NCBI GenBank assembly: GCA_021816725.1
Contig: JAKAXD010000002.1
Location: forward strand, 49,957 to 113,956
Direction: 5' to 3'
DNA length: 64,000 nt
Origin: Thermoplasmata archaeon
GTDB lineage: Archaea > Thermoplasmatota > Thermoplasmata > Thermoplasmatales > GCA-001856825
Every line of letters starts with the position of its first letter. Positions within the stretch are counted from its first letter, which is position 1. Below, one piece after another: positions 35,801 to 45,619 of this stretch. The notes beneath the pieces were generated by a model that saw nothing but the letters and a program-made list of their open reading frames with translations, made no database searches and was not told where the DNA came from. The translations under genes and the position numbers were made by a program.

Positions 35801-36727
35801 TCAGGCCCGGCTCTCTTCCATCACCCTGGAATTATGCCCATCGATCAGCAGGAATATTGTCTCATCCTTGTGCTGGAACTCGAGTGTCCATACAGGTATG
35901 TGCACAAGGTACATATCTGCGATATCAACATTTACGTTTGCTGACAGGAACCCTCTGACACTCTTTTGAAGCCTCCTGATTTCCCACTGTTGTATCCTTA
36001 TCTTTCCTTCCATCCTAGCTTTCTCTTCTCCCATGCTCCCGTTCATGAGCTTTATGGGCCCGCTTACATCATTTTGTTTTATTGGTCTCTGATTTGAAAG
36101 ATTGAATACATAGTCCGGAGGCTGATACTGGTTCATGTTCTCTATAGCGATGACAGGGTAATGGACCTCATTCACATCCGAACCTGATTCGACAATTGTC
36201 TGTACGTTTATTGAGGGGCCCCCGAACCCCCCTCTGCCACCCATCCCTACTGCAACGAATCCGCCTGGGTTTACCTGTTCCCTTTTATATTGATACTGAG
36301 CCGAATATCCTGCATCCATTATCCAGTATGGAATGTAATTCAGCTCAACCTTCTTCAGTTGACTCTTTTCGAAAAGGTGTCTGTGGAATATACTGTTATC
36401 GAGGAATTCCTTAGATATCTGCTCAGCTTGATCCTTCATCTGTACCTTGATATCTAATATGAAGTGCTTCTCCACCTTTGTCCACCCGAGAGAACCCAGG
36501 GATATGGAGGTGCCGCAGTAAGCACATACGACCATTGCTTCTCCTGATGCAGGATTCAACGGTGCACCACAGTTGGGGCACTTCATCTCCTTAAGAACCT
36601 CGGACTGTTCTCCCCCGTTCTTTCCACCTGCTGTGGAGGTGGGTGACTCGCTTTTCTGGGGGGCTCCGCACTTCGGACAGAAATCTGAATCGTCTGGTAT
36701 CTGGGCACCACACTTTTTGCAGTACGT
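35801..36727 (-). CDS. Zinc-ribbon protein; coding-like sequence extends upstream of the ATG at 36586 to an ACG at 36725-36727 or to the SPFH stop
   Basis: MKCPNCGAPLN...CAYCGTS; in-frame upstream YCKKCGAQIPDDSDFCPKCGA. Confidence 0.7.
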   Translation of the reverse strand, partial: TYCKKCGAQIPDDSDFCPKCGAPQKSESPTSTAGGKNGGEQSEVLKEMKCPNCGAPLNPASGEAMVVCAYCGTSISLGSLGWTKVEKHFILDIKVQMKDQAEQISKEFLDNSIFHRHLFEKSQLKKVELNYIPYWIMDAGYSAQYQYKREQVNPGGFVAVGMGGRGGFGGPSINVQTIVESGSDVNEVHYPVIAIENMNQYQPPDYVFNLSNQRPIKQNDVSGPIKLMNGSMGEEKARMEGKIRIQQWEIRRLQKSVRGFLSANVNVDIADMYLVHIPVWTLEFQHKDETIFLLIDGHNSRVMEESRA

Positions 36728-36728
36728 T

Positions 36729-37889
36729 TCAGATCACCTTCTCACCACAGTTCGGACAGAACTTTGATCCAGGAGGTATATCCGTCCCACATTTCGGGCA
36801 CTTTGTCACTATCGCTTTACCACATTCAGGGCAGAATTTAGAGTTCTTAGGTATATCTTTTCCGCAGTACGGGCATTTCATCGTTTCCTCAGCAGCGAAA
36901 CTGTAGCCGCAGGAAGGACAGAACTTTGCATTTTCATCCACATCAGTCTGGCACTTGGGGCACTTCTTCACCTTCTTCTCCACGGGCGGCTGTTGCTGGT
37001 TCATCCCCTGCGTAATGTTTGAGGCCATTGGATATGCCATCCCTGCACCTGCCCCCAGGCCCATACCAAGTCCCACTCCAGCACCAGCAGTTCCGCTGGT
37101 GTTCTTTGCGGCATCAACCATTGCCTGTCCGGCCTGGTACTGCAGGTAGTTGGCTCCAACCGCCTTCATGCTGGATCTGGTATCAATCGCTTTCTGTACT
37201 TCGTCAGGGAGGGAGATGTTGAGGCCTGAAATCTTGTTCAGTTCGACCCCGTATTGATCAAATGCCGCCTTTGCTGAAGAAAGTACTGCTTCCTCTATGT
37301 TCATAAGGTTAGAAGGAAGGTCAAGAACAGAGACCCCCTGGTCCTTCATCTTGCCAAGGACGTTGTATATTAGCAGCACCACCTGATCCCTTATCCTCTC
37401 CTCAACGTCTGCGCTCGTTTCTACGTTGAATGTACCTACGAACTGGTTTATGAATATTGATGGGTCAGAAATCCTGTACCTCATGTCCCCGAACAGTCTC
37501 AGCATTACTATATCGAAATCCTTGTCCCTGAATGCGTATGGTTCCTTGGAACCAAACTTCCCATCGATGATCCTTCTCTGTAGATAATAGACGTAAGCCT
37601 GCTGCTGAACACCACTAAGTGCCTTGACCAAGCCCCCGACCACCGGTGCATTAAGATCCGTCAGAGCATATCTTCCTGGCTTGTCAATGTACCATATGGC
37701 CTTACCATCCCTGAAGAATACGGCTGTTTCGTCCTCCCTGACCACGGCATTATCATTAAGCCTGATGAGTCTGGGAACCTTCCACATTATGTTTCCTTGC
37801 TTGAATTGGTCCTCCCATTCAAATGTGGTAGAGCCAAATAAGCTCCCTCCCTTTGATGGAATATCTGAACTCTTCTTCCCGAAGGGCAT
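36729..37889 (-). CDS. SPFH-domain protein with C-terminal tandem zinc ribbons (YdjL/virion-core-like)
   Basis: SPFH region plus three CPxC...CPxCG ribbons. Confidence 0.85.
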   Translation of the reverse strand: MPFGKKSSDIPSKGGSLFGSTTFEWEDQFKQGNIMWKVPRLIRLNDNAVVREDETAVFFRDGKAIWYIDKPGRYALTDLNAPVVGGLVKALSGVQQQAYVYYLQRRIIDGKFGSKEPYAFRDKDFDIVMLRLFGDMRYRISDPSIFINQFVGTFNVETSADVEERIRDQVVLLIYNVLGKMKDQGVSVLDLPSNLMNIEEAVLSSAKAAFDQYGVELNKISGLNISLPDEVQKAIDTRSSMKAVGANYLQYQAGQAMVDAAKNTSGTAGAGVGLGMGLGAGAGMAYPMASNITQGMNQQQPPVEKKVKKCPKCQTDVDENAKFCPSCGYSFAAEETMKCPYCGKDIPKNSKFCPECGKAIVTKCPKCGTDIPPGSKFCPNCGEKVI

Positions 37890-38432
37890 CTAAACACCCC
37901 CGTATAGCAGGGTCTCCCTGCTGTTGTTAAGATTTGTGATTGCAGACAATGTCGCATTGATCCCCTGTAATTTGGATTGATCAATGTTCCCGTTGGCGCA
38001 ATTCTGGACGAATGCGTTCATTAGATTCTGGAGGATTTGAACCTGCTCAAATATCTTCATGTCAAGGTCATAAAGGGAAGAAATTTTCTTTGCATCCACC
38101 CTGACAGGTGCGGAAATGCCGGAGTAACCCGTTCCATGATGTTTGACTGTCTCTGCTGCAGTTTGTATCCTTGATCTCAGGGCACCTATTGATTCGAGCC
38201 CTGCAAATTTGCCGGAGCTGACGAGGGAGCTTTCCCCCTCCTTCAGATTTGTGATGACATCCAGCATCTTCTTGTAAAGTTCGTCCTTTAGTATGATGTC
38301 CGCGTCCCGAAGATCCTCATTGACCCTATACCCATGATAACCAGGGAACACCAGTTGGATCTTCTTTATGATACCTCTATCCTCGACGACTTGATCCCTT
38401 AAGTCGGTCATGTGTGTGTGAAGGGAAATCAC
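37890..38432 (-). CDS. Hypothetical helical protein adjacent to the SPFH gene
   Basis: 180-aa ORF ending immediately upstream of the SPFH start. Confidence 0.7.
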   Translation of the reverse strand: MISLHTHMTDLRDQVVEDRGIIKKIQLVFPGYHGYRVNEDLRDADIILKDELYKKMLDVITNLKEGESSLVSSGKFAGLESIGALRSRIQTAAETVKHHGTGYSGISAPVRVDAKKISSLYDLDMKIFEQVQILQNLMNAFVQNCANGNIDQSKLQGINATLSAITNLNNSRETLLYGGV

Positions 38433-45101: not shown

Positions 45102-45161
45102 ATGTCGATCAAGAGAAGGCCCGATGACGATGAGGACGACGAGGATGATGATGATTTCTGA
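45102..45161 (+). CDS. 19-aa acidic micro-ORF MSIKRRPDDDEDDEDDDDF
   Basis: ATG preceded by GGAGGTG (45089-45095); stop overlaps the start of the GNAT coding region. Confidence 0.55.
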   Translation: MSIKRRPDDDEDDEDDDDF

Positions 45162-45619
45162 ACCCAGTCCTGAGAAGGGGTTCAATCAAGGACATTGATG
45201 ACATAGCCAAGGTGGAAAACAGGGCATTCGGAAGCCACGCTTATGATTACCCAGCATTGAAGTACATGCTTGGCATTGCCAATTCTATTACCACCGTGGC
45301 AACAGTTGATGGAAGGATAGTTGGTTACGCGAGCATTTTCTTCAGGAAAAACTCGAAGATATCTCATCTTGAAAGCATTGCTGTCGACCCAGAATTCCAG
45401 AATGCGGGCATTGGAGGGATGCTGATGGACGAGGTTGAGAGGATATCACTGGAGATGAACTGTTCATTGATAGTTTTGGAGACATTCGAGAAGAATGTTT
45501 CTGCCCTGAAACTTTACGAAAGGAGCGGTTTTAAGGCGAAGGAAGTGGTACAGGATTACTATCATATTCCCTTTGATGGATCCAGAAACGCCATAAGGTT
45601 TGAGAAAAGAATAAAGTGA
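45158..45619 (+). CDS. GNAT acetyltransferase, RimI/Ard1-like; possible CTG start
   Basis: (M)NPVLRRGSIKDIDDIAKVENRAF...AVDPEFQNAGIGGMLMDEVE; the GTG start in the track cuts into the domain. Confidence 0.8.
   Translation: MNPVLRRGSIKDIDDIAKVENRAFGSHAYDYPALKYMLGIANSITTVATVDGRIVGYASIFFRKNSKISHLESIAVDPEFQNAGIGGMLMDEVERISLEMNCSLIVLETFEKNVSALKLYERSGFKAKEVVQDYYHIPFDGSRNAIRFEKRIK

Follow-up and report, generated by a model that had tools for sequence, protein, structure and literature searches.

At one gene junction of the window (the whole stretch of 64,000 nucleotides of Thermoplasmata archaeon DNA that was analysed), a gene for an SPFH protein is followed on the minus strand by a gene whose frame encodes a zinc ribbon upstream of its first canonical start codon, which raises the question of where, and at what codon, translation of the downstream gene begins. 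The SPFH open reading frame (37889..36729) has the 3' end GAG AAG GTG ATC TGA, and the zinc-ribbon frame is open on the same strand from 36733 to 35801, that is, for 310 codons with the translation SETYCKKCGAQIPDDSDFCPKCGAPQKSESPTSTAGGKNGGEQSEVLKE-MKCPNC..., with an in-frame TGA immediately upstream (TGA TCT GAA ACG TAC TGC). Throughout the 49 codons of this frame that precede the ATG at 36586, there is no ATG, GTG or TTG. Such a run is not rare by itself, being expected about 5% of the time under our rough estimate of about 6% for the combined frequency of the three codons; it is meaningful because the codons involved encode a strong zinc ribbon that is conserved in all close orthologs. The residues encoded upstream of 36586 include YCKK and CGSEIPDDSDFCPK, with the ribbon segment YCKKCGAQIPDDSDFCPK, and the Pfam match to Zn_Ribbon_1 (PF13240, E 7.6e-13) spans residues 4-25, inside the start-less 49 codons. 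The open frame with zinc-ribbon coding and without ATG, GTG or TTG, which a sequence-only reading of this DNA had pointed out after the SPFH stop, is confirmed by the reading frame and by the Pfam match; the ribbon is of the Cys4 kind. Among the codons that precede the first cysteine (TCT GAA ACG TAC), ACG alone is one base away from ATG. The features of the junction are as follows.

36729..37889, minus strand: SPFH (Band_7_1) gene, Pfam PF13421 (E 4.4e-34), with three C-terminal zinc ribbons (PF13240, three matches)
36732..36739, minus strand: Shine-Dalgarno sequence AGGTGATC, 8 nt, 4 nt before the ACG and within the last SPFH codons
36729..36731, minus strand: TGA stop of the SPFH gene, one base ahead of the ACG, a termination-reinitiation distance
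36725..36727, minus strand: predicted ACG start codon of the zinc-ribbon gene, homologous to ATG, GTG or TTG in the 14 nearest other orthologs
35801..36727, minus strand: zinc-ribbon gene from the ACG, its most likely extent, 308 aa
36656..36724, minus strand: N-terminal zinc ribbon (its codons being 2-24), translated only from a start at or before the ACG
36584..36586, minus strand: first in-frame ATG, the internal methionine of VLKEMKCPNCGAP, probably taken as the start by automatic annotation

The downstream protein consists of an N-terminal Cys4 ribbon, a linker, a second ribbon and a C-terminal domain without a family, and the NCBIfam search gave it no family name. On the other side of the SPFH gene, positions 37890-38432 of the window (minus strand) hold a 180-aa gene without a Pfam family, which shows a weak, sub-cut-off likeness to the NCBIfam LIMLP_15305 family (E 4e-7).

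Within the family, 14 of 15 genomes have the zinc-ribbon gene, and across the order it can be traced, at declining similarity, in 58 of 117; it was found also in nine named records, including that of the I-plasma archaeon (ATMD01000002.1), the sequence of which is the same as that of G001, the independently sequenced sister species of the window genome (G000). The window species is an uncultured, acid-loving archaeon, and public community proteomes from the acid mine drainage of the Richmond Mine cover these archaea (PMC3750248). In the 14 nearest other orthologs, from the genus, the family and a neighbouring family, the codon at the position of the ACG is ATG (nine), GTG (two) or TTG (three); among the 16 close orthologs compared, ACG is confined to the window genome and G001/I-plasma, and in both of these genomes no canonical start lies between the in-frame stop and the ribbon. 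In all 10 members of the genus that have the gene, the junction consists of a stop codon, one nucleotide and a start codon: TGA-A-ACG in G000 and G001, TAA-A-ATG in G003, TGA-G-TTG in G007 and G005, TGA-A-GTG in G002, TGA-A-ATG in G010, G006 and G004, and TAG-A-GTG in G009. An in-frame start, ATG or TTG, comes directly after the stop in the sister genera and in the neighbouring family, and in most of the distant orthologs (G116 and beyond) an ATG or GTG precedes the first YC or FC; for G018 and G019, this motif rule pointed at least one codon inside the evident MK-C or MK-YC start. All the junctions of the relatives carry a start, and therefore the downstream gene always had one of its own. 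The sequence-only reading had proposed the alignment of orthologous junctions as a check on its two options, and this comparison decides for the ACG, a start position homologous to ATG, GTG or TTG. The window genome and G001 form a sister clade (support 0.991). The ACG is a fixed change from a single event, very probably in the ancestor that the window species shares with the I-plasma archaeon.

The most serious rival explanation holds that the start was lost, with translation now beginning at the internal ATG at 36586 to give a protein of 261 aa without the first ribbon, while the 46 upstream codons decay. A methionine is indeed conserved at that position in all 16 close orthologs, and the N-terminal codons of G000 and G001 have pN > pS. 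However, between the two species, only 3 of the 72 ribbon bases differ, whereas the 4-fold sites of this gene (27 of 96 changed, a rate of 0.28) would predict about 20, so the total divergence amounts to roughly one seventh of that at 4-fold sites (P = 1.9e-7); for ribbon and linker together, 13 of 135 bases differ (P = 1.3e-7). All four cysteines of the ribbon are kept, with no stop or indel, and both non-synonymous ribbon changes (A/S and Q/E) involve residues found in relatives. The constraint argument rests on the low total divergence because the division into synonymous and non-synonymous changes (1 and 2 in the ribbon, 1.5 and 7.5 in the linker) shows no synonymous excess and involves too few changes to be informative by itself. 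Moreover, the linker evolves fast in every member of the genus (pN 0.39-0.72), so its high pN is not a signal of decay. The N-terminal ribbon has stayed constrained since the change to ACG and is, by all appearances, still coding, and we consider a start at the internal ATG improbable.

The ribosome-binding signals point the same way. The 8-nt AGGTGATC is perfectly complementary to the 3' end of 16S rRNA, GGATCACCTCCT, as taken from the I-plasma archaeon (G001), and it is the strongest Shine-Dalgarno sequence of the set, compared with 5-6 nt in the 14 relatives; the duplex energy is -14.6 kcal/mol for the ACG pair versus -8.1 to -10.2 in these relatives. Against a start at the internal ATG, the duplexes ahead of that codon are weaker (-7.3 and -5.9). 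The two extra bases derive from the last sense codon of the SPFH gene, which is ATC instead of AAC, AAT or AAA; the strengthening arose once and is therefore no more than suggestive of compensation for the ACG. The AAG GTG codons for the C-terminal Lys-Val of the SPFH protein do not vary among the 16 close genomes, as would be expected if they were held as Shine-Dalgarno sequence as well as for coding.

The initiator tRNA of G001 is ordinary (A1-U72, GGG/CCC anticodon stem, CAU), and no initiator tRNA with a CGU anticodon was seen among the tRNA genes typed, a subset of those of both genomes. The sole CGU tRNA seen is an ordinary G1-C72 Thr elongator, and an altered initiator tRNA was rejected.

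A further possibility is that the ACG reflects a generally relaxed start-codon selection in this lineage or else conversion of ACG to AUG by C-to-U editing, a pair of options to which we jointly assign a low probability. Relaxed selection is considered because, in addition to the ACG, there are apparent CTG-type starts in a small gene, throughout the genus, and in a GNAT gene, in the same two species. These came from a census of 281 conserved gene pairs of G000 and G001, covering 384 kb of the window genome and blind to genes in which a canonical codon closely follows the true start; in this census the zinc-ribbon gene was the only ACG case and two further, CTG-like candidates emerged. Most of the other extended upstream frames appeared to overlap a neighbouring or antisense gene, or to be start regions without a sign of selection (ten were examined codon by codon, the remainder assessed from the table).

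In the GNAT acetyltransferase gene (window 45155-45616, plus strand), the body of which is under purifying selection (pN 0.017, pS 0.24), a one-base insertion common to G000 and I-plasma puts the ancestral ATG out of frame. The new start may be a CTG that overlaps (CTGA) the stop codon of a short Asp-rich ORF lying upstream; in I-plasma, an in-frame ATG also follows six codons later. The small gene (G000:C17:224069-224290, minus strand) encodes 70 residues with no Pfam or NCBIfam match, and its size suggests a putative Pcc1-like protein. In the genus members in which it was found, it has no ATG, GTG or TTG at the start, which overlaps the end of a long upstream ORF, but has CTG (two candidates, or ATT); in the sister genera, there is a TTG at one candidate start position.

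Alternatively, a programmed +1 frameshift at ATC-TGA, of the kind known from prfB and antizyme, would yield an SPFH-zinc-ribbon fusion with the junction ...CGEKVIETYCKK. In its favour, there is a +1 offset between the two frames, the downstream one stays open over the stop, and a Shine-Dalgarno-like stretch lies ahead of the stop, but the same offset occurs in eight other members of the genus with plain ATG, GTG or TTG starts, the last sense codon varies (ATC, AAT, AAC, AAA, GTA, AGC) as does the stop (TGA, TAA, TAG), and, in the sister genera, where the start follows the stop in frame, the layout is not even that of a shift. Furthermore, tRNA-Ile (GAU) re-pairs poorly with UCU in the +1 frame, and, by the familiar geometry of prfB, the Shine-Dalgarno sequence here is misplaced: it covers the ATC codon and, unlike that of prfB, is unavailable for pairing when ATC occupies the P site. 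A frameshift is, hence, very unlikely. Between an ACG start and a +1 shift, which the sequence-only reading had left as alternatives, the former is upheld by the homologous position, the presence in two genomes, the Shine-Dalgarno sequence and the conserved ribbon, whereas the latter, including its likening to prfB and antizyme, is not supported, given that the relatives keep a two-gene layout with ATG, GTG or TTG while the stop and the preceding codon vary.

To our knowledge, C-to-U editing of mRNA has not been described in archaea, and conversion of ACG to AUG in this manner, as in plant chloroplasts, retains hardly any probability. In its favour, chloroplast editing acts on ACG (PMC9845219), and the ancestral codon here was ATG, GTG or TTG. 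Equally remote is a sequencing or assembly error hiding a true ATG, an outcome that had been named as one that would undo the start-codon reading: relatives do have ATG, and both genomes are metagenome assemblies, but the same C stands in two separate genomes, with identical junction DNA, whose zinc-ribbon genes show 71 differences in 924 bases, and therefore the ACG is not an error.

Very probably, then, the zinc-ribbon gene is a separate gene that Met-tRNAi starts at ACG, aided by the extended Shine-Dalgarno sequence and by coupling to the SPFH stop, and the comparison with relatives strongly supports initiation at this codon. Under this scenario, the start codon of an ordinary, separate zinc-ribbon gene would have become ACG by mutation in the ancestor shared with I-plasma. 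Ribosomes ending SPFH translation at TGA, or free 30S subunits, would be positioned by the 8-nt AGGTGATC, so that the ACG, one base past the stop, is placed in the P site, where the CAU initiator tRNA would start with methionine despite the second-position mismatch; the product would retain the N-terminal ribbon, M-YCKKCGAQIPDDSDFCPKCGAP.... We infer the decoding of ACG as methionine, a contribution of reinitiation, and a lower yield. The yield is probably reduced because, in an E. coli reporter library, ACG was among the weak initiators, giving 0.1-1.5% of ATG (PMC6925171), and coupling is proposed because the one-base distance between the stop and the ACG falls in the range in which termination-reinitiation is efficient in Haloferax, namely, overlaps and very short distances (PMC10666635).

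The ACG is outside the starts allowed by prokaryotic gene callers, and the N-terminal ribbon is probably missing from annotations. No native archaeal gene documented to start at ACG is known to us, and the open-access literature searched, a partial collection, yielded none. A natural ACG start found in two species together with the strongest Shine-Dalgarno sequence of the set would provide a clean test of how far archaeal initiation tolerates a mismatch in the middle position.

Several known systems offer themselves for comparison. Suboptimal prokaryotic starts (GUG and UUG) tend to be paired with stronger Shine-Dalgarno sequences (PMC5622118), and the present case resembles the compensation described by Belinky et al. 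in 2017 in that a weaker start goes with a longer Shine-Dalgarno sequence, although that study covered AUG, GUG and UUG, whereas here the codon is ACG and the event is single. With archaeal termination-reinitiation (PMC10666635), the junction shares a stop and a start at a short, efficient distance, +1 nt; other gene pairs were tested there, whereas coupling here is deduced from the layout alone. The +1 frameshifts of prfB and antizyme likewise involve a UGA stop beyond which the +1 frame is open, but at this locus neither a slippery codon nor the stop is conserved, the Shine-Dalgarno spacing is wrong, and the starts of the relatives are separate. A further parallel is with near-cognate prokaryotic starts, which have been measured in reporter libraries (PMC6925171). 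Natural examples are the AUU codons of the E. coli genes infC and pcnB. As with such starts, the codon is one base off AUG, the initiator is normal, and the Shine-Dalgarno context would help; in contrast to them, the predicted start described here has its mismatch in the second position, lies outside the starts of NCBI table 11, and belongs to a native archaeal gene in which the ACG is fixed across two species.
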